Assembly: GCA_030625085.1 (NCBI GenBank)
Contig: DAOURK010000016.1
Coordinates: 1-47,436, forward strand
Reading direction: 5' to 3'
Origin: Pseudomonadota bacterium
GTDB taxonomy: Bacteria; SZUA-182; DTGQ01
DNA length: 47,436 bases
The translations under genes were made by a program, and so were the position numbers. This document shows, piece after piece, positions 30,354 through 44,673 of this stretch. The notes under the pieces were generated by a model. That model had not been told where the DNA came from, searched no databases, and worked only from the letters and a program-made list of their open reading frames with translations. Within the stretch, counting starts at the first letter, position 1; each line of letters begins with the position of its first letter.

Positions 30354-30418
30354 GTTTTCTGAAGCTGAAAAAATAAGTAATTTATAGTGAATTAAATTCA
30401 TTGAAAGGATACATAAAA

Positions 30419-30967
30419 ATGATAGAAAAATTTTCTCATTTGTTGCTTAGATCAATCGCCTATTTTATTCTTGAACCGCGGTTCAAGAATGGGAAATGGC
30501 TGATCAGTAAAGATTCTTTACAGTGCTTAAGTTTAAACCTTGACTCTTTACTGGTGGCATACAATGAAGCTTTAAAAATTTTTCATCAACTCAACTTATG
30601 TTCAACATGTTCAGGATATTGTTGTTATGGGGCATACAATCGACTTTCCGTTTATGACCATATAGCACATAAAGTCGCTGGATTAAAAGATTCGCCGGCA
30701 TGGGGGTATAGATTGCATCCAATTAGGGCAAATACCTTGAATCGTATCGATGAGGGGAAATGCCCATTTTTTATTGCGGGGAAAGGTTGCGCTCTGGAAT
30801 ATCGTAAAAGACCAGCTCTTTGTATTTGGTGGATTTGTAATAAAATGAAAATAAGCCTTAATGATAATGAAAAATATTTACTCAAAAAGATAAGGCGAAA
30901 GATAGATAAAGTGCATTGGGCATTTGCGAGGTGCTTGCTTTTGGGTGGCATGTCGCGATTAAAATGA
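30419..30967 (+). CDS. YkgJ-like cysteine-cluster protein
   Basis: A 182-residue protein starting at an ATG with GAAAGGA ten bases upstream; a TTG 18 bases earlier is less likely. Cysteines are grouped as CSTCSGYCC, then GKCPFFIAGKGCALEYRKRP followed by LC and W-x-C. This is the arrangement of the YkgJ/zinc- and iron-chelating CxxCxxxCC family. Such proteins bind a metal or Fe-S cluster; their role is unclear, with maturation of other metalloproteins one idea. It follows the FemAB-like gene by 65 bases. The N-terminal 50 residues are hydrophobic in part (LLLRSIAYFIL) but not a clear signal. Confidence 0.72.
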   Translation: MIEKFSHLLLRSIAYFILEPRFKNGKWLISKDSLQCLSLNLDSLLVAYNEALKIFHQLNLCSTCSGYCCYGAYNRLSVYDHIAHKVAGLKDSPAWGYRLHPIRANTLNRIDEGKCPFFIAGKGCALEYRKRPALCIWWICNKMKISLNDNEKYLLKKIRRKIDKVHWAFARCLLLGGMSRLK

Positions 30968-31055: not shown

Positions 31056-31667
31056 ATGCATATACTTTTCATTTCAAGGCTTTTCCCAAACCAGGCCAAA
31101 CCTAACCGGGCGCTTTATAACCGGCAATTGCTTTTTGCTCTGCAAAAGCTGGGACATAAAGTTTATGTCATCGCTCCGGTTTTATGGTTTCCCGGGGGGA
31201 AAATTATCCGGCCAAGGCCATTCCCACCGGTTGAAGCAAAATTAGATCGAGAATATATCTATCATCCCCGGCTGTTTTATACGCCGGGGATTTTTATTTA
31301 TTGGCATTATCTGTTTTACCGTTGGTCAATCAGAGGGCATTTTTATCGTATGGTTAATGAATTCCATCCGGATCATATTATTTTGGGCTTTATATATCCG
31401 GACGCAGTTGCGCTTGCGCCGTTTTGCCGGAAATTGCAATTGGATTACTCTGTTCTTGTGCTCGGTTCGGATTTTCGGTTACGTACCCGGCAATCTAAAT
31501 TTAAAAATCTTGTGATGACAACACTCCATAAGTCGCCCTTGATCTTTTGTCCAGGGTTGGCATTGAAAGACGATATGACGACAGATGGAATTGAAGGGAG
31601 CAAAATTATTCCCTTTAATAATGGTGTGGATTGCAAGCTTTTCTATCCACAAATAAACGCAGATTAA
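31056..31667 (+). pseudogene. N-terminal half of a split GT4 glycosyltransferase (TuaC-like)
   Basis: The start MHILFISRLFPNQAKPNRAL and the following HKVYVIAPVLWFP match TuaC-type GT4 enzymes. The acceptor domain runs through GFIYPDAVALAPF, LVLGSDFRLRTR and the hinge FNNGVDCKLFYP. It then stops within a dispersed repeat (AAACGCAGATTAA) at about residue 203, exactly where the donor domain should begin. A fitting donor half starts at 33334, after a 1.7-kb block holding a beta-helix gene. The simplest reading is one GT4 gene broken by insertion. Alternatively the halves are made as two polypeptides. The start given is preferred over an upstream ATG at 31011. Confidence 0.72.
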
Positions 31668-31715
31668 TAACGTGCTGCAGATGAACTCAAATTAGAAAGA
31701 GAGATGAACGCAGAT
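31656..31715 (+). repeat. Dispersed AACGCAGAT repeats at the left edge of the insertion
   Basis: AACGCAGAT occurs at 31656-31664 and again at 31707-31715, in a context (GATGAACGCAGATAAA) known as a dispersed repeat in many environmental bacteria. The first copy contains the stop codon of the truncated GT4 half, so it probably marks the break. The rest of the gap to 31951 holds no clear gene. Confidence 0.45.
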
Positions 31716-31951
31716 AAAGCGGCATCCTTTATAATTTTAAACATGTTCAGGTTCCCACAGGGAGGGAATAAGTCTAAAGTTGCAGATGTATGTAGATAAT
31801 GCTGCGTTTTTATTATTTGCATATGTTTGGGGATTTGCAAATAATTATTGGCTGGATTGTTTTGATGATGCCGATTTCTTGGTTGGTGTAGTTTTAAAAT
31901 TTTAAATTTGATGTACTTAAATATTTTACCAGACCAAGAAAGGAAATGAAA

Positions 31952-33172
31952 ATGGAAAAGAAGGGCAAAAGAGGAGCGCTTAGGTATTTATTATTTTTAA
32001 TTATAAGCATTGGATTAATTATAGGAGCAACCGTCTTACCCGGCCAGGCTGATGAGCCGGTTTATCTTTCAACTTCAAATGATTTGATGGATGCATCAAG
32101 GGGAGAAGGCCGGTTTGCCGGCTCGCCTCCGGATACGACATTTATCATCAGGAATGGAATATATTTCGCTGAACGGGTAAAAGTTCTTTTTTATGTTACC
32201 AAAGGGGGATTGGCCGAATCTCCAAGACGTTTTATCGGAGAGAGTCGAGATGGGGTGATTATTCAAGACAGGGCGACTATTGCAGCGGATTTTGTGGAAT
32301 TGCACAATCTTACCTTTGATCTTTCAGAGTATGAACGATCACAAAACCAGAGCTTCAACACCATCACCATTGTCAATGCCGGCCATATCAGGCTAAACAA
32401 CCTTTTTTGTACAGGCAAGGGGGATAAGGGACGAAGAGGCGGACATGTTGCGTTTGAGTATTATTCAGGCCAAAAGATCCCTGAAGACATAATTGTTGAG
32501 AATTGCGTGATTGAAAGATTCGGACGCTTTGATAACCCCGAAGGAAAATTGGATCATGGGGTCTATATCTCCGCCGTACGAAAGCTTGTGTTAAGAAATA
32601 ATGAAATACGCGATAATGCCGGCCGGGGAATTCAGTTTTATACTTCCAATGGAGGGATTGAGCATATTTCCGATGTTTTGATTGAAAACAATATAATCCA
32701 TCATAACGGTTATTTCCCTTATGCTGATGGGATTCTCATATCCGCCGGTTCAAGTGTGCCTAAAGGAACAATTAAGAATATAACTATTCGGAATAATCTG
32801 ATTTACAAGAATGCCTTTTCGGGTATTAGACTGAATACATCGGCCAGTGAAAATATTACAATAGAGAATAATACCTTCTATCATAACAGCTTCAAATTTT
32901 CCAGGGGAGCTGAAATATTCATTGATGATAGTAGGGGAGGGAAAGACGTCGCTTTCACAAAAAATATTTTTGTTCCCGATACTGTGGCCATGAAGGGCTG
33001 GAAATGGGCGGAGGATGTGGTTCTTTATGATAATATAATTGATGGTGATATGGGTGATGAAGCTGCTTTTGATAACACCAATCTCTTTATTTCAGCAATA
33101 TTAACAGATCCTGAAGCAGGTGATTTCAGGTGCGCGGAACCCGATTTGAGCGACTATGGCTATCAATTTTGA
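31952..33172 (+). CDS. Secreted right-handed parallel beta-helix protein
   Basis: Starts MEKKGKRGALRYLLFLIISI, with a signal peptide whose likely cleavage is after GQA at about residue 33. AAGGA lies seven bases upstream of this ATG; an ATG six bases earlier is too close. From about residue 85 on, short repeats carry the Asn ladder of PbH1 folds: IIVENCVIE, LVLRNNEIRDNAGRGIQF, VLIENNIIHHNG, ITIRNNLIYKNAFSGIRL, ITIENNTFYHN. Proteins of this fold in sugar loci are often lyases or C5-epimerases acting on polysaccharide in the periplasm or outside. No catalytic set can be assigned. The gene sits inside a GT4 gene and may have arrived with the block that broke it. Confidence 0.85.
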   Translation: MEKKGKRGALRYLLFLIISIGLIIGATVLPGQADEPVYLSTSNDLMDASRGEGRFAGSPPDTTFIIRNGIYFAERVKVLFYVTKGGLAESPRRFIGESRDGVIIQDRATIAADFVELHNLTFDLSEYERSQNQSFNTITIVNAGHIRLNNLFCTGKGDKGRRGGHVAFEYYSGQKIPEDIIVENCVIERFGRFDNPEGKLDHGVYISAVRKLVLRNNEIRDNAGRGIQFYTSNGGIEHISDVLIENNIIHHNGYFPYADGILISAGSSVPKGTIKNITIRNNLIYKNAFSGIRLNTSASENITIENNTFYHNSFKFSRGAEIFIDDSRGGKDVAFTKNIFVPDTVAMKGWKWAEDVVLYDNIIDGDMGDEAAFDNTNLFISAILTDPEAGDFRCAEPDLSDYGYQF

Positions 33173-33228
33173 TTTATGCCTATTCAGAATTTCAAGGCTA
33201 TAGATTTTCAGATATTAAATTTTATATT

Positions 33229-33280
33229 GTAGCGCAGAGCTTCAGCCCTGCATTTTGGTAGGGCTGAAGCCCTGCGCTAC
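33229..33280. repeat. GTAGCGCAG hairpin repeat, possible terminator
   Basis: GTAGCGCAGAGCTTCAGCCC (33229-33248) and its near-perfect reverse complement (33261-33280, 19 of 20) enclose a 12-base loop. TTTTG follows the right arm. It lies 57 bases after the beta-helix stop and could end its transcript. The same hairpin type is a common dispersed repeat in bacteria, so it also marks the right side of the block inserted in the GT4 gene. Confidence 0.75.
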
Positions 33281-33333
33281 TTTTGTCTAAATATCGATTA
33301 TGAAGTTATTTTTCTAAAAATCTATATAAGGCT

Positions 33334-33990
33334 ATGATGAGAGCAAAATTGGTTTTATTTGTAGGGAATGCGGTCGATGTCAAAGGCATCGACCGTTTAC
33401 TTTTTGCCTGGAAGATTTTGCTTGATGAATTCAAGGCTAAAAATGCGCATTATGCCCTTGAATTGGAAATTATTGGGGACGGGCCGAGGCGAAAGCGCCT
33501 GGAGAGGCAGGCGCGTGAATTGGGCATTGCGAACTCGGTGCGGTTTGTGGGGCAAAGGCCCCAGGCGGAGATTGCCGGGCGGATGAGAGCGGCGGATTGT
33601 CTTTGTCTTCCCAGCCGTTCGGAAGGAATGCCGAATGTTGTGATTGAGGCCTTGGCTTGTGGGATTCCGGTCGTTGCCTCTGATGTAGGCGAAGTGCCTT
33701 TTTTAATTAAGGATGGTGTGAACGGCTTTGTTGTGCCTCAGGTTGAAAAGCAGATAATCGTAAATAAACAAGGATGCCTGTTAAGAAAAGAGCATGGGGT
33801 AGAAGCAAAGGGTATGAATTCAGAAGAGGAAAGTTTCGCCGTCCGCCTGGCCGGGGCTTTGGCCGAGACGCTTGTTCGTGAATGGAATGTCGGGGCAATT
33901 ACCGAAGGGGTGAATGGTTTTACCTGGGACCGGGCTGCGCAAATTATCGTCGAGGCCATTCAAAACGGTAGGACGATGAGGGCGGAGTAA
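33334..33990 (+). pseudogene. C-terminal (donor-domain) half of a split GT4 glycosyltransferase
   Basis: It starts with KLVLFVGNAVDVKGIDRLLF, which is normally preceded in GT4 enzymes by the NGVD hinge and about 15 linker residues. Here that part lies 1.7 kb upstream at the end of 31056-31667. LEIIGDGPRRKRLERQA, SVRFVGQRPQAEIAGRMRAA, PSRSEGMPNVVIEALACGIP and VGEVPFLIKDGVNGFVVP are complete. An extra segment of about 40 residues (after VPQVEKQ) is unusual. The frame is stopped upstream at about 33301, so no fusion to the N half is possible without processing. It could be translated from ATG 33334 or 33337 as a lone donor domain, but is most likely inactive. Confidence 0.72.
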
Positions 33991-34109: not shown

Positions 34110-35393
34110 TTGAGGAAAGCATTGTATAAAGCCATAGATAAATGGCTGGCCGGGTATCTACGTTCGGTTTTCTCTCGGCCGAAATCAGTTAAAAGGCCAC
34201 TCCATGTGATGTTCGCTCTGGTGGATCATTTTGAGCCCTGCCCGCCTATTACTGCGAAGGGGCTTAAAGCCGGTATGCAAAAGGTTGACCGTTGGGTTAA
34301 GGAATTTCCTCCTTTGGTTAAATCCTTTGTGGATTATGATGGGCATCGTCCAAAGCATACCTTTTTTTTCCCGGCTGAGAAATATCACCGGGATTATCTT
34401 GAAGGGCTGGCTGATATTTGCGGCAGCGGCTTTGGTGAGGTGGAAATCCATTTGCACCACGATAATGACACTGAGGCAGGATTTCGCCAAAAGCTAAGCC
34501 GGTTTCGCGACTTGCTGCACCTTGAACATGGATTTCTCGGACGGGATTTTAAAAACAGACCGCGATATGCTTTTATCCACGGTAATTGGACCCTTTGCAA
34601 TTCACATCCTCAGGGCAAGCTCTGCGGAGTGGATAATGAACTGCACATTTTGCAGGAAACCGGCTGTTATGTAGATATGACCATGCCCTCAGGCGTGACT
34701 CCCACCCAGACCAGGACTGTCAATTCAATATATTATGCGGGTGATATACCCGGCCGGCCCCGTTCGCATGATTACGGCATTCCTGTCAGTGTAATGGCGG
34801 CCTGCGGACATGATTACGGCCTTCCTGTCAGTGCAATGGCGGCCTGCGGAGCGAAAGAATTGGGCCATGGGCAACAGAGAGCAGCGCGCGGCATAACAAG
34901 GGCCGGAGGATGGCAAACCGGCAAAGCGCGCAAACCGGCAGTGGGCTGGGCGCAGGCGGCATCGCCGGAAGATGGGCTGATGCTTATTCAGGGACCGTTG
35001 GCCTTGAACTGGGCCTGGCGCAAGTGGGGTGTTTTGCCCCGCTTTGAACATGCGGATATCAGGGGATCAAGTCCCCCCGGGCCGCAGCGGGTTGACCTTT
35101 GGGTTCGCCAACATATTCATGTGCTCGGTCGTCCTGAGTGGATTTTTATCAAGGTTCACACTCATGGCTGTCAGGAGGCGAATATGAAATTGTTGCTGGG
35201 AGCTTCGCTTAAGGACTTATACCGGTATTTGAACTTGCAGTATAATGACCGCCGGAATTTTTGCCTGCACTATGTAAGTGCCCGTGAAATGTATAATATT
35301 GTCAAGGCTGCCGAAGCCGGGGCAAAGGGTAATCCGGGAGAATTCCGGGATTTTGAGATTCAGGCGCCCAAAATTTCCGGAAAAGATTTTTAG
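34110..35393 (+). CDS. Polysaccharide deacetylase-like protein with a low-complexity insert
   Basis: A 427-residue protein from a TTG start. LHVMFALVDHFEPCPP, the HTFFFPAEKYH strand and VEIHLHHDNDTEAGFRQKL (metal-type H-x-H-H) resemble the NodB-like fold. RYAFIHGNWTLCNSHP, LNWAWRKWGVLPRFEHADI, RVDLWVRQHIHVLGRPEW and IFIKVHTHGCQE match a conserved uncharacterised deacetylase family of sugar loci. Between SHDYG and LMLIQGP, about residues 220-290, lies a repetitive insert (two copies of HDYG-PVS-MAACG, then Ala/Gly/Arg-rich sequence) not expected in the family. It may be an expanded surface loop or a repeat insertion kept in frame. The ribosome site is poor, so the start is uncertain. Confidence 0.72.
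   Translation: MRKALYKAIDKWLAGYLRSVFSRPKSVKRPLHVMFALVDHFEPCPPITAKGLKAGMQKVDRWVKEFPPLVKSFVDYDGHRPKHTFFFPAEKYHRDYLEGLADICGSGFGEVEIHLHHDNDTEAGFRQKLSRFRDLLHLEHGFLGRDFKNRPRYAFIHGNWTLCNSHPQGKLCGVDNELHILQETGCYVDMTMPSGVTPTQTRTVNSIYYAGDIPGRPRSHDYGIPVSVMAACGHDYGLPVSAMAACGAKELGHGQQRAARGITRAGGWQTGKARKPAVGWAQAASPEDGLMLIQGPLALNWAWRKWGVLPRFEHADIRGSSPPGPQRVDLWVRQHIHVLGRPEWIFIKVHTHGCQEANMKLLLGASLKDLYRYLNLQYNDRRNFCLHYVSAREMYNIVKAAEAGAKGNPGEFRDFEIQAPKISGKDF
34767..34850 (+). repeat. 42-bp in-frame tandem duplication
   Basis: Two adjacent 42-base units (34767-34808 and 34809-34850) differ at only two positions and encode HDYGIPVSVMAACG and HDYGLPVSAMAACG. The unit length is a multiple of three, so the reading frame of the deacetylase-like gene is kept. 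High identity suggests a recent slip or unequal exchange. Confidence 0.9.
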
Positions 35394-39068: not shown

Positions 39069-41243
39069 TTATTCTTGCTCTTCTTGCTCTTCATAGCCAT
39101 AATTGTAATATTTATAATGGCTGTAATACTGAGAATAGTAATCGTGTTTTTTCCTTTCCAAATTATTAATGATCACACCGATAATATTAACATGATTATT
39201 TATCAGGTTTTCCACTGATTGCTTAATTAAAGCCCGGCGGGTTTTCCCACCCTCAACAATAAAAAGTGTGCCCTGGGTTAATGACCCTAAAATTGTGCTG
39301 TCGGTTACATTAATTAGCGGCGGCGAATCAATAATAACCCGCTCATAAAGGCCGGATACTTTGGATAACAAATCCTTCATAGACTCGCCGGCAAGGAGTT
39401 CGGGCGGATTAGGCGGATAAATACCGCATGGCAGGATATCCAGATTTTCTATACCGCTTGGTTGAATAACCGCTTCTAATGTATCCTGGCCGATAAGATA
39501 AACCGAACATCCCGGGTCTTTTTTTAGATTAAAATATGAATGAATTTTTCCTTTCCTTAAATCGCCGTCTATTAAAAGGGTTTTGGTTCCGGAAATGGCA
39601 AAACAACAGGCCAGATTAACTGCTGTCTGGGTTTTTCCTTCTCTGGGGACGGCCGAAGTAATGAGGAGAGTAGTTAATTTTTTGGGAGGGGAAGAAAGGA
39701 CTATATCGGTGCGCAATTGTCTGAATATTTCTAAGATAACATTTTGTTTATCATCCGGTTTTATAATCTTTTCATCCGTTTTCTTATCATGATAAGAAGC
39801 AAACGCGGGTATTAAAGCAAGCATAGGTAAAGAAGAAAACATAGGGGCGGAAAACAGTTTCACAAATTCTTCCTTACTTCTTATCGTATCGTTTAAATAT
39901 TCAACAGTAAAGGCAAGGCCCAAACCCAGCCCAAGGCCAAGAAAGATGGCCGTCATCATGCCCTTGAAAGGCTTCGGGGCAACAGGTTTTGGTAAAAGGT
40001 AAGGGTTTTCAATGACTTGTATCTGGACCCTTTCATTATTAAAGTTAGTGGCTATATCAATTTCATTAACTCGCTGGAATAAAAGATTATAAAATTGTCG
40101 CCTGCGTCCTAAGGCAGTCTTTAAATTTCCATATTCACGTGATTGTTTATTCAAAACGATGATTTTATTTCGCCATTTTTTCAATAACCTTTTTTTTGTT
40201 TCCTCTTCTATTTTCAACATATTATACTGGGAATTCAATTTTTTTTGCAGGCAGTCTATTTCACTGTCAATATGTTTTTGAATATTATCCAGCTCTTTCA
40301 TCAATTTTATAATTTTCGGGTGACTTTTTTTATAAATCAGGCTTTCGTTGATTAAGTTGCTTTTTAATTCGACCTTTTGCGCACTAAGATAGGAATATCC
40401 CTGCAGTTTATTTCCTCTTAAAAAATAGGCCGGTATGGTTTCGGCCTGTGCGACATTTTCTTTTTGGCCGTTTATTAATGGGAAAGAATATATGCGGGCC
40501 AGGCTGCTTTCAATTGAAAAGGGGTCTATTTTTTTATTAAATTTTTCCATCTGGGCTTCGATTATTTCCCGTTCGTTGCTTAATGCAGCAAGCGAAGATT
40601 GTAAAGTTCCCACTGTGTTGGCCGGGATATTACCTATCAGGTCATGGGCTATAAGATCGTGGGATTTTTCAAAGGCTAAAATTTGTTCCTCCAAAAATCC
40701 AATCTGCTTTTCAGCGGCGTTTATTTGTGAAGTCAACTCCAGCAAGGCTATTTCAGCGCTGGTGCCTTTTTTTTCCACTTTAAATTTAATATATTCATTT
40801 ATTAAAAGATTGTTGTAGAACAGAGCATATTCCCGGCTAATGCTGTCAATATCAATGGCTATAATATCCAGACCACTCAATTGACGAAAACTCACTTTCG
40901 GCGCAAGATCTTCCGGACTGAGGTGTTTGTCCCAACCGGCTTCAAGGGCTTTTTTCTCAAGCCGTTTTTTGAAGGTTTTACTGTTTATTATCTCACTTTG
41001 CCCTCGAATATAAGAGCCGGCTGTTTCAGTATAGACATTTGGCACGGGCAAGCGCATGCCTGAGGAAAACTGGATTTTGCTTTTTGCGCGCCAGATTTTC
41101 GGCTGCTTAAAAAACCACAGGGCTGTCGCCGAGACGCTGACCACAAAGCAAAACATAATCAGCCATTTGTGCTTAGTAAACTTAAAAAGATATTCGCGTA
41201 TATCTAAGGGCGCTGTTTGCTGATTTTTATCCGGAAACTGCAT
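39069..41243 (-). CDS. wzc: Wzc-like polysaccharide co-polymerase with tyrosine autokinase
   Basis: A 724-residue inner-membrane protein that controls chain length and export. The N-terminal Wzz domain has a first helix at about residues 29-48 (KHKWLIMFCFVVSVSATALW), a long periplasmic coiled-coil part with Leu/Lys/Glu repeats, and the PKPVAPKPFKG motif before the second helix (about 425-445). The cytoplasmic BY-kinase has Walker A (SAVPREGKTQ, about 528-537), Walker A' (LLIDGDLRKG) and Walker B (RVIIDSPP, about 636). The tail holds nine tyrosines in YYSQYYSHYKYYNYGY, the usual autophosphorylation cluster, before an acidic end. It is downstream of wza on the same strand. Confidence 0.95.
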   Translation of the reverse strand: MQFPDKNQQTAPLDIREYLFKFTKHKWLIMFCFVVSVSATALWFFKQPKIWRAKSKIQFSSGMRLPVPNVYTETAGSYIRGQSEIINSKTFKKRLEKKALEAGWDKHLSPEDLAPKVSFRQLSGLDIIAIDIDSISREYALFYNNLLINEYIKFKVEKKGTSAEIALLELTSQINAAEKQIGFLEEQILAFEKSHDLIAHDLIGNIPANTVGTLQSSLAALSNEREIIEAQMEKFNKKIDPFSIESSLARIYSFPLINGQKENVAQAETIPAYFLRGNKLQGYSYLSAQKVELKSNLINESLIYKKSHPKIIKLMKELDNIQKHIDSEIDCLQKKLNSQYNMLKIEEETKKRLLKKWRNKIIVLNKQSREYGNLKTALGRRRQFYNLLFQRVNEIDIATNFNNERVQIQVIENPYLLPKPVAPKPFKGMMTAIFLGLGLGLGLAFTVEYLNDTIRSKEEFVKLFSAPMFSSLPMLALIPAFASYHDKKTDEKIIKPDDKQNVILEIFRQLRTDIVLSSPPKKLTTLLITSAVPREGKTQTAVNLACCFAISGTKTLLIDGDLRKGKIHSYFNLKKDPGCSVYLIGQDTLEAVIQPSGIENLDILPCGIYPPNPPELLAGESMKDLLSKVSGLYERVIIDSPPLINVTDSTILGSLTQGTLFIVEGGKTRRALIKQSVENLINNHVNIIGVIINNLERKKHDYYSQYYSHYKYYNYGYEEQEEQE

Positions 41244-41324
41244 ATTCTGTTATCTTTCCTCTAAAAATTATCGAAGGTGCGTTTTACGAAATTTGTCGGC
41301 GCTGATGTTCCTTTATAAATGAAT

Positions 41325-41434
41325 CTGTTTATTTACTATGGTTTTAAAAATCACTTAAATTTTTTTTTAATAAAAATAAAATGTTATGGTTACCATTTTT
41401 ATAAAAATTACTCAATTTTGGACTAAATAAACAG
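41325..41434. other. Inverted CTGTTTATTTA pair in the wza-wzc gap
   Basis: CTGTTTATTTA (41325-41335) and its exact reverse complement TAAATAAACAG (41424-41434) frame about 88 bases of AT-rich sequence between wza and wzc. It might allow a long-range hairpin or mark a small element. No flanking direct repeat is seen, and chance is possible in such AT-rich DNA. Confidence 0.3.
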
Positions 41435-41459
41435 AGTCATAAATATGGGCGCCGGTGTT

Positions 41460-42356
41460 TTAGAATTTGAAGAAGCTTTGGGGCACGATAATCCAATCCC
41501 CGTTTTCCAGCACAATATCTTTTTCAAGATGCCCTTTTTTAAAAATATTGTCCGTGTTTATAATTGTAATTCCTCTCTTGCCTTTATTATCAAACCGGGC
41601 CAGTTTCACTTTTTTTTGTTTGGCAAATTGTGTAAAACCGCCTGCTATAATAATGGCCTTGCACACAGTGAAGGTCTCGTCTCCCGGTATATTCATTGCG
41701 CCGGGCCTTGAAACCTCTCCGACAATATAAATTTTTTCGGTGGTGGTTTTGGCGTCAATAGTTTCGGTGTCTATCGCATTGATATATGAAGTTATAGTTT
41801 CGTTATCCGGAAGTAATTTTTTTTCATGGTAAAAGACCGAAACAGTGGCTTTACGAAAAAATTTTTTTTCTAGATCAACTTTGATTTTTTGAGCTAAGGC
41901 TGAAGGCCGCCAACCAACTGCGTAGATTTCATTTATTAAAGGCAAAACAATGTAGCCAGTTGGGGTAATGGTAAATAGGTCTCCATAATCTTTATCTTCT
42001 TCCAACCGGATGTACAGTTTATCACCCGGAAGAATAAATTTCTCGTTTAAGGCTTGATAATAGTCGGCTTTTTTTTGGGATGCGGAGGCCTTTATTTCAG
42101 CCCCGGCCAGGTAATCGCCGGCTTTTTTTCTGGTTTCCACAGCCTGCGTTTCTGCCCCGGCCAGATGATCGGCTGCTTCAGTCTTGGCCCTGGAATTTTT
42201 GGCTTTTGCTTTGGCTGGGTAATTTTCGGCTTTTGCCTCCGGCCTGAGCCGGTAAAGGGGACTAATACCGATCAAATTGATTAAAAGGGTCAACACTATT
42301 AATTGCTTTAGAATAAAGATGAGGGGAGGTATATATACAATATTTTTTGGCTTCAT
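41460..42356 (-). CDS. wza: Wza-like polysaccharide export protein with an Ala/Lys-rich helical insert
   Basis: A 298-residue protein. After an N-terminal hydrophobic segment (about residues 10-32) comes an unusual stretch (about 38-100) rich in Ala, Lys and Glu with imperfect repeats (KAGDYLAGAEIKA, DHLAGAETQAVE). The Poly_export domain starts NEKFILPGDKLYIRL and runs TPTGYIVLPLIN, then a SLBB-like part EKIYIVGEVSRPGAMNIPGD. No lipobox Cys is present, and the C-terminal barrel helix of E. coli Wza is lacking, so it is the short form typical of exosortase- and Gum-like loci. It forms an operon with wzc, 216 bases downstream. Confidence 0.85.
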   Translation of the reverse strand: MKPKNIVYIPPLIFILKQLIVLTLLINLIGISPLYRLRPEAKAENYPAKAKAKNSRAKTEAADHLAGAETQAVETRKKAGDYLAGAEIKASASQKKADYYQALNEKFILPGDKLYIRLEEDKDYGDLFTITPTGYIVLPLINEIYAVGWRPSALAQKIKVDLEKKFFRKATVSVFYHEKKLLPDNETITSYINAIDTETIDAKTTTEKIYIVGEVSRPGAMNIPGDETFTVCKAIIIAGGFTQFAKQKKVKLARFDNKGKRGITIINTDNIFKKGHLEKDIVLENGDWIIVPQSFFKF

Positions 42357-42534
42357 CGATTTTTGATTCTTTATGTATAGGTTTTTAGATATTAAAAAGA
42401 TTTTGGTTATTATCGGTATTGTTTATTTAGATGAATTTAGTATAATATCTATTTACTGCTTTATTGTATATACATCGGAATAAATGAAGAATTATAGCTA
42501 ATAAAAAATGTCAACTTTTTGTATGTAATGAAGG

Positions 42535-44673
42535 ATGCCGAAAAATTATTTTAAAATGGAATACGGCCTGATTTTTTTAATTATTCTGTCCCCCTTGCTT
42601 ATAGGCGCTGTCTATCCATGGGCCTATGCTCTGTTGGCGGCAGTGGCCTACTGCCTTATGGGCTGCTGGTTGATAAGAGGACTACGCGGAAAATCCATGG
42701 GTTTTCCGCCGGTGTGTGTGGGAAAAAATTGCCGGATACAATGGGCTCTGGTATGGCCGTGCCTGTTTGTCCTTATAGCCTTGATCCAGCTTGCCCCTTT
42801 ACCCCTTTGGTTTATAAAATTTATTTCTCCGGCTGCCTATCGCCTTTATATGCCGTTGGGGGTAAAGTTCCACACCTTATCAGTGGATAGGTTTGCCGCC
42901 TGGAACGAGTTGATAAAGGTTTTTGCCTATCTGTGTATATTTCTTATCCTGGTGTATTATCCCTTTAATGGCTCTAATAGGGTATTGCGCCGAATCTACC
43001 GGGCAGTCATGGGCGTCGGCGCCATAGTGGGCATAGTGGGCTTAATTCAAAAATTTACCGGAGCTGATAAAATCTTATGGCTATGGGCCCCCTACATGAT
43101 AAATGAGCCCATTTTTTATGGTACTTTTGTGAACCCCAACCATTTTGCCGTTTATATAGAAATGATCATCAGCCTCTATTGGGGCTATATTGCTTATCAA
43201 ATAGCCGGTGGAGGTGGATATGAAGATGGATATGGAGGTGGAGGTAGATATGGAAGTAGAAGTAGAAGTAGAAGTAGAAGTGGATGTGAAGGTGAAGGGG
43301 GAGGGGGAGGTGAAGGGGGAGGTGGAGGTGAAGGGGGAAGAGGGAGGATGAAAAAAGCACGAGGATTCAAAACCTGGATTGTAGACATGGAGGATGTCTT
43401 GGCCAGGAGCGGTCTTCTCTTTTTTGTAATGCTCATCCTGACTGTTTCCCTTTTCTTTTCTTTGTCCCGTGGCGGAATAGCGGTTATCCTGATTGGCTTT
43501 TTGTTTTTCCTTGTCATGATAATTATTCGCCGTAGGCAGGTAAGGTGGCCCATGGTATTGACCGTATTTTTCCTGCTGTTTCTTTTTTCTTCTTTAACCT
43601 ATCTGGGGGTCAAACCGGTCCTGCAGGAAATGCAGACACTATCCGCATCAAGGGAAGATCCTTCCATTAAGTCAAGGATGAAGACCTGGCGGCACACCTG
43701 GGAGCTGATACGAGAGTTTCCTGTGTGCGGGGTGGGGCTGGGCGGTTTTGAGCAAATATACCGCCGGTATGAAAGGTGGAGGATCTGGTCGTATACGCAT
43801 AACGATTTTCTTCAGCTCTGGGCAGAGTTGGGTATGGGAGGGATTATCCTGCTATCCCTCGGCCTGGTTTTGTTTCTTTTGGGGGTCATACGCTGGGCAA
43901 AAGGCAAAGAGAGGTTAAATAGTGGTTTTGAGGCAGCGGAGTATATGCGCTTAGGGTGCTATACTGCTATGTTCTGCTTTTTGCTTCATAGTTTAATTAC
44001 CTTTAATTTTTATATCTTTGCCAATATGATGCTCTTTGTGGTTATTTGCGGAATGACTGTTAGGGGGCAAAAAGGGAGGAAGAGACCGGGGCCGGGGCAC
44101 AATCATAGGGCCGGATTTTGGAGAATGAGTTATGGCCTTCTGATGGGATTGATTCTGCTTTTGATAGTCGCTGCCCTAAGGGGGGGATATGGTCGGGGAG
44201 GTTATAAATCCGTGGGCGATCGAAATTTCCGGGAGCAGGTCCTTAAAGAATTGCCCATGGCCCGGATTATGCCCTTGTGGAACAATAGTCCTTATCGGTA
44301 TTATTTTTTGGCCAGGTGGTATGAAGAGAAAGGATTTGCCGAGGAAAATTCCGGCGACGAACAGAGAACCAACCGGCAAAAAGCTATTCGGGAAATGTAT
44401 AGAGCCCTGGAACTTCAGCCTGCCAGGTCACTTTTTTGGGCAAAACTGGGGTATTTGATGAGTCATGTTGAAGAAGAGGAAATCGGTTACCGCAAAGCTT
44501 TTGGTCAGGCGCTGCATTTTGCTCCCCAAGACGCAGGGCTCCACTTTTTTATAGGGTCTTATCTGTGGCGTCTTGGTGATCCATTAGGCCTTGGTGTCCT
44601 ACAAAAGGCCGTTAACCTTAATCCTTCCCTTGCTCGTAAATGTGAAAAATTGTTTAATATCTCCTTCCACTAA
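42535..44673 (+). CDS. O-antigen ligase/polymerase-like membrane protein with TPR tail and Gly/Arg/Glu-rich loop
   Basis: A 712-residue polytopic protein. About 12 membrane helices hold the Wzy_C-type loop with KTWRHTWELIREFPVCGVGL, GGFEQIYRRYE and the H-N motif YTHNDFLQLWAELGMGG. The soluble C-terminal part (about residues 600-712) has TPR-like helices (AIREMYRALELQPARSLFWA). Between helices, about residues 224-275, lies a low-complexity insert of Gly, Arg, Ser and Glu encoded by microsatellites. It would ligate or polymerise glycan at the periplasmic face and is the second such protein in the window. The start could also be the ATG at 42556. It is transcribed away from wza. Confidence 0.85.
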   Translation: MPKNYFKMEYGLIFLIILSPLLIGAVYPWAYALLAAVAYCLMGCWLIRGLRGKSMGFPPVCVGKNCRIQWALVWPCLFVLIALIQLAPLPLWFIKFISPAAYRLYMPLGVKFHTLSVDRFAAWNELIKVFAYLCIFLILVYYPFNGSNRVLRRIYRAVMGVGAIVGIVGLIQKFTGADKILWLWAPYMINEPIFYGTFVNPNHFAVYIEMIISLYWGYIAYQIAGGGGYEDGYGGGGRYGSRSRSRSRSGCEGEGGGGGEGGGGGEGGRGRMKKARGFKTWIVDMEDVLARSGLLFFVMLILTVSLFFSLSRGGIAVILIGFLFFLVMIIIRRRQVRWPMVLTVFFLLFLFSSLTYLGVKPVLQEMQTLSASREDPSIKSRMKTWRHTWELIREFPVCGVGLGGFEQIYRRYERWRIWSYTHNDFLQLWAELGMGGIILLSLGLVLFLLGVIRWAKGKERLNSGFEAAEYMRLGCYTAMFCFLLHSLITFNFYIFANMMLFVVICGMTVRGQKGRKRPGPGHNHRAGFWRMSYGLLMGLILLLIVAALRGGYGRGGYKSVGDRNFREQVLKELPMARIMPLWNNSPYRYYFLARWYEEKGFAEENSGDEQRTNRQKAIREMYRALELQPARSLFWAKLGYLMSHVEEEEIGYRKAFGQALHFAPQDAGLHFFIGSYLWRLGDPLGLGVLQKAVNLNPSLARKCEKLFNISFH
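43204..43352 (+). repeat. Purine-rich microsatellite with GAAGTA units and G-runs
   Basis: GAAGTA repeats nearly five times at 43253-43282, encoding Ser-Arg repeats. From 43291 to 43352 the coding strand has many runs of 2-5 G separated by A, GA or TGA, a strong G-quadruplex pattern. All units are multiples of three, keeping the frame. Such tracts slip easily, so loop length may vary between strains. Confidence 0.9.

Follow-up and report, generated by a model that had tools for sequence, protein, structure and literature searches.

A GT4 glycosyltransferase gene split at its interdomain linker, with a beta-helix gene between the halves, in an exopolysaccharide cluster

Two open frames in the window (the whole stretch of 47,436 nucleotides that was analysed, an entire contig of a 4.94-Mb genome in 247 contigs) encode the acceptor and the donor domain of a GT4 glycosyltransferase, and their derivation from one ancestral gene, now split, is well supported by sequence comparison. 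We consider it probable (roughly 60%) that this gene was broken at the linker between its two domains by a rearrangement within its cluster, that the full-length enzyme was lost, and that the fragments most likely represent a young pseudogene. The features of the locus are listed in Table 1.

Table 1. Features of the split GT4 locus (positions are those of the window).
Feature	Position	Strand	Details
GT4 acceptor-domain half	31056..31667	+	203 aa; PF13439; profile positions 1-201; ends FYPQINAD, TAA TAA
Possible in-frame linker remnant RAADELK	31668..31691	+	past two stop codons; read-through match
Unique non-coding stretch	31692..31945	.	5' of beta-helix gene; no other genomic copy
Right-handed beta-helix protein gene	31946..33172	+	408 aa; N-terminal signal peptide or anchor; AAGGA Shine-Dalgarno-like motif
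MITE-like element	33198..33327	.	130 bp; inverted ends CTATAGATTTTCAG / CTAAAAATCTATAT; GTAGCGCAG hairpin core; AAGG both sides
GT4 donor-domain half	33334..33990	+	218 aa; PF00534; profile positions 215-387; own ATG ATG, AAGG upstream
Syntenic neighbour, conserved protein	34110..35393	+	427 aa; clusters with uninterrupted GT4 in G097 and G106

The positions of both halves given in a preliminary description of this DNA were confirmed, and both frames are fully open. The acceptor half matched PF13439 (1e-7; 32.6 bits against a cut-off of 28.5) and the donor half matched PF00534 (9e-36), the latter including a conserved E-x7-E-type segment, SEGMPNVVIEAL. For comparison, 80 loci encoding acceptor-domain relatives were drawn from GTDB genomes, and the 76 uninterrupted homologues that passed a length filter (330-460 codons) were used to build a family profile of 394 positions. 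The acceptor half scored 142 bits and the donor half 154 bits against this profile, with a gap of 13 positions between their spans. GT4 is a single chain in all 76 length-filtered homologues, and no split homologue was found among the 80 loci; of the four outside the filter, L134 and L142 have short frames near the end of the available DNA, and L089 and L133 have longer frames in which both halves were matched. Within the homologue set, the top-scoring gene for both halves was the same uninterrupted 412-aa gene of the Verrucomicrobiota MAG Yes70-15 (L067, which is G097), with 43% identity to the acceptor half and 46% to the donor half. The subclade also includes an uninterrupted open frame of 431 aa in G106, as well as G112, where the acceptor domain continues into the donor domain until the contig ends. 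Uninterrupted orthologues therefore exist in L067/G097 and G106.

In trees, the acceptor half grouped with L067, G106, and G112 (support 100/100); the closest partner of the donor half was L067 (95/82), with G106 joining next (97/91). Since both halves belong to one subclade, occupy adjacent profile positions, and have only uninterrupted relatives among the length-filtered homologues, we attribute them to one ancestral gene, as had been proposed; the alignments to intact relatives did not place the halves in different subfamilies, and the relatives at the 80 loci did not share the two-gene layout. The halves do differ in composition (GC 42% vs. 51%; GC skew 0.02 vs. 0.32), which would fit two different GT4 genes lying close together by chance, but the own halves of intact GT4 genes in the same genome differ by up to 12 GC points and by 0.32 in skew. 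An origin from two genes was rejected on the common subclade in the trees and appears extremely improbable.

When compared with TuaC-like GT4 enzymes (PF13439 plus PF00534/PF13692), the two halves together have both domains in the same order, the NGVD hinge, the SRSEGMPNVVIEAL segment, and the C-terminal TW..A helix. They differ in being two frames 1.7 kb apart, and thus not a single GT4 chain, in carrying L-x-L-G-S-D in place of R-x-N-G-S-D in the acceptor half, and in a donor half that is ~25 residues longer internally. The donor half also remained far under the NCBIfam TuaC equivalog cut-off (NF047684; 75/550 bits), and the acceptor half had no match to that model. We note that ~25-30 additional residues of the donor half (EKQIIVNKQGCLLRKEHGVEAKGMNSEEE; 33740-33835) lie between GFVV and the next helix and are missing from relatives.

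The break coincides with the natural boundary between the two GT4 domains, the interdomain linker, and the acceptor frame ends there in two in-frame stop codons. With the stops masked, the read-through match extended to profile position 213 and gained 2.7 bits; among 1000 random continuations, 17 scored as high and 30 got to position 213. This is suggestive of a part of the linker (RAADELK) surviving past the stops. The previous estimate of about 15 lost linker codons is near the 13 profile positions that separate the halves, but linker length differs among the nearest relatives, which makes any figure for the lost codons approximate, and some of the linker may persist. With regard to this region in other enzymes, the GT4 homologue of G007 (L007:1492-2823) carries an in-frame insert of ~37 residues (QSPLTQPSPLRGEGD...LSPVGRGQGEGG) just before the hinge, near the site that matches the break in the window gene; the insert resembles a palindromic repeat translated within the protein.

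The earlier description of the gene between the halves as a beta-helix gene was confirmed: its ORF matched PF13229 (5e-19) and PF05048 (6e-7), and the N-terminus of the protein is hydrophobic and signal-peptide-like. A role in polysaccharide editing, which had also been suggested, found nothing in its support: a search of the PDB by sequence gave no relative for the beta-helix protein (or for the acceptor half), and its predicted fold was a low-confidence model (pLDDT 54) with no significant structural match. The unique non-coding stretch upstream of this gene showed no similarity to proteins of the syntenic loci, and no remnants of neighbour genes were found in the non-coding edges of the insert. 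Between 31640 and 33340, nothing outside the MITE-like element recurs in the genome, and the insert was accordingly rejected as a repeated mobile element. The CGCAGAT sequence at the left edge, previously taken for a dispersed repeat, is not one. Its two-unit pattern (≤2 mismatches) was found only once elsewhere in the 4.94 Mb, the left 161 bp matched themselves alone in a genome search, and the one-unit pattern occurs in the window at chance frequency (18/100 shuffles reach its count).

Gene order in related clusters bears on how the beta-helix gene came to lie there. The conserved protein downstream of the donor half (34110-35393) had no Pfam or NCBIfam family match, and its orthologues were found in L178 (47%; 1.6e-124) and L177 (43%; 5e-105). 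The order in G097 (L178) is asparagine synthase/GT, the uninterrupted GT4, GT, hexapeptide transferase, beta-helix, GT2, and the orthologue of the 34110 protein, while that in the window is acceptor half, beta-helix, donor half, and the 34110 protein; in G106, one cluster holds both the GT4 and the 34110 orthologue (43%). A two-sequence comparison of the beta-helix proteins of the window and of the G097 cluster gave a weak match (28% across 144 columns of the alignment; E 2e-10), and from their gene position they are likely orthologous. The beta-helix gene is therefore probably not foreign to the cluster. In G097, too, the interval from the GT4 to the 34110 orthologue contains a beta-helix gene, and for this reason a rearrangement inside the cluster fits better than the earlier proposal that the GT4 gene was broken by insertion of a polysaccharide-editing cargo gene. 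In nine genomes of the phylum, neither the beta-helix gene nor the 34110 gene had an orthologue and GT4 homologues reached just 27-32%, and conservation of the layout within the phylum was rejected on the missing orthologues. We also note that homologues of the 34110 protein occur in several phyla (L178, L177, L095) and that the window protein contains an internal near-repeat (GHDYGIPVSVMAAC / GHDYGLPVSAMAAC) with ~50 additional residues around it when compared with the L177 orthologue.

Building on the single ancestral gene, the break site, the MITE-like element, and the synteny as documented by these comparisons, we infer a rearrangement route, an order of events, and a loss of activity as follows. 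The starting point would be a single TuaC-like GT4 gene of the exopolysaccharide cluster, and a rearrangement inside the cluster would then have brought the secreted beta-helix gene in between the acceptor and donor domains. The 130-bp element before the donor half was probably acquired in a separate event. The full-length enzyme would no longer be made, and the two open fragments would most likely constitute a young pseudogene. Relocation of the beta-helix gene and duplication followed by deletions are indistinguishable here. In one specific version of the latter, the GT4 gene was duplicated in tandem around the beta-helix gene, after which deletions removed the donor part from the first copy and the acceptor part from the second; this would yield the window order from a G097-like GT4 - beta-helix - 34110 arrangement with the beta-helix gene unmoved. 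It requires, however, two independent deletions ending at nearly the same linker codon, and the edges hold no remnants of the lost parts, so that we regard it as improbable.

The GTAGCGCAG hairpin reported at the right edge is real and far above chance, its arms occurring 245 times in the genome (119 + 126) and the reversed control pattern not at all (0), but it forms merely the core of the 130-bp element. At least 40 further full-length or near-full-length copies of this element were detected, with identities of 77-92% (40 scored out of 241 candidate places), within a MITE-like family of 130- to 146-bp palindromes with inverted ends CTATAGATTTTCAG that is spread genome-wide (e.g., L036-L065). 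Its predicted fold is strong (-58 kcal/mol; z -9.7). The element resembles prokaryotic MITEs and dispersed palindromic repeats in being short, non-coding, strongly palindromic, bounded by inverted ends, and present in many copies. AAGG flanks the window copy on both sides, but the other examined copies showed no consistent target duplication. Only 6 bases separate the element from the donor ATG, which would sit ~30 bp past the beta-helix stop if the element were removed.

A multi-copy element at the right edge, in a genome of 247 contigs, raises the question of whether the contig was assembled from non-adjacent sequences. The window copy has at most 38 consecutive identical bases in common with 28 sampled loci, the left edge is unique sequence, and to the right of the element come the correct donor half and the syntenic 34110 gene. 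These observations make a misjoin at the MITE-like element unlikely, and we assign an assembly artefact only a very small probability.

To judge the state of the halves, we considered conserved sites, substitution counts, and translation signals. The acceptor half kept 18/29 of the family-conserved sites, which is below every intact homologue (20-29), although this loss is partly subclade-wide (L067 keeps 21 and G106 22 of the 29). In its R-x-N-G-S-D motif, R134 and N136 are both replaced by Leu, and both are unchanged in the three closest relatives. Relative-rate counts against L067 were raised for the acceptor half with G106 (35:19; p 0.04) and L080 (26:10; p 0.01) as outgroups, both p values being uncorrected, but not for the donor half (14:16 and 9:20, respectively). 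The count for the acceptor half against G106 was non-significant (35:25), and the use of own_C116 as the outgroup turned the direction around (12:22). No Shine-Dalgarno-like motif was present at the acceptor ATG. The donor half kept 23/26 conserved sites, and its branch is the shortest in its subclade. Our results suggest that the acceptor half carries some extra divergence and the donor half none.

It is possible, though we think it unlikely, that each half is translated on its own and that the two products assemble into a functional GT4 enzyme of two pieces. Such an arrangement would be analogous to EpsE/EpsF of exopolysaccharide synthesis and to Alg14/Alg13, MurG-related GT-B enzymes reported to be divided in the same way, with the acceptor domain on one chain and the donor domain on another (PMC4973528). 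In its favour, the split falls precisely on the boundary between the domains, both frames are open, and the donor half retains its conserved sites and has its own ATG with AAGG upstream, close to the beta-helix stop if the MITE-like element is disregarded. Nonetheless, the conserved two-gene layout that a functional split would predict was not seen, with no split homologue in the 80 loci; the acceptor half is altered in its motif, extra-divergent, and poorly equipped for translation; and the halves are 1.7 kb apart with an unrelated gene in between and a strong palindrome ahead of the donor half. The known split enzymes are also MurG-related and not GT4, and their split is conserved in many species, as opposed to one genome here. 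A search of the open literature found no split GT4 enzyme, which is weak evidence of absence. Slightly less likely again is the full proposition, a GT4 that functions although its two domains are made as individual chains parted at their natural boundary, and whose two coding regions enclose the gene of a secreted beta-helix protein.

Interrupted genes are common in polysaccharide clusters. The window gene resembles other interrupted glycosyltransferase genes of such clusters in being a transferase broken in an O-antigen or exopolysaccharide locus, and differs from them in that no insertion-sequence transposase is involved; the intervening gene is instead a probable cluster member, accompanied by a MITE-like element. 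If the gene is indeed broken, as we favour, the locus would be a further case of a polysaccharide cluster changing its product via transferase loss, in which both fragments have remained open. Should both halves work, it would be a natural split GT4, meaning that the two domains of a very large family are able to function as separate chains, which is already known for MurG-related enzymes. Given that split GT-B enzymes are known and that interrupted genes are commonplace in these clusters, the locus offers little novelty unless the halves work together.

Directly 5' of the acceptor half, an ORF of 188 aa (30401-30967) has a cysteine-rich CxxCxxxCC-like cluster and no Pfam or NCBIfam match. No defence families were detected. 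The surroundings (9089-30967 and 39069-44673) form a large exopolysaccharide locus with many GT4/GT2 genes, asparagine synthase, MBOAT, two Wzy_C proteins, Wzz/AAA, polysaccharide export genes, and a FemAB-like protein. One glycosyltransferase of this locus is near the PEP-CTERM/XrtA stp3 family (343/442 bits).
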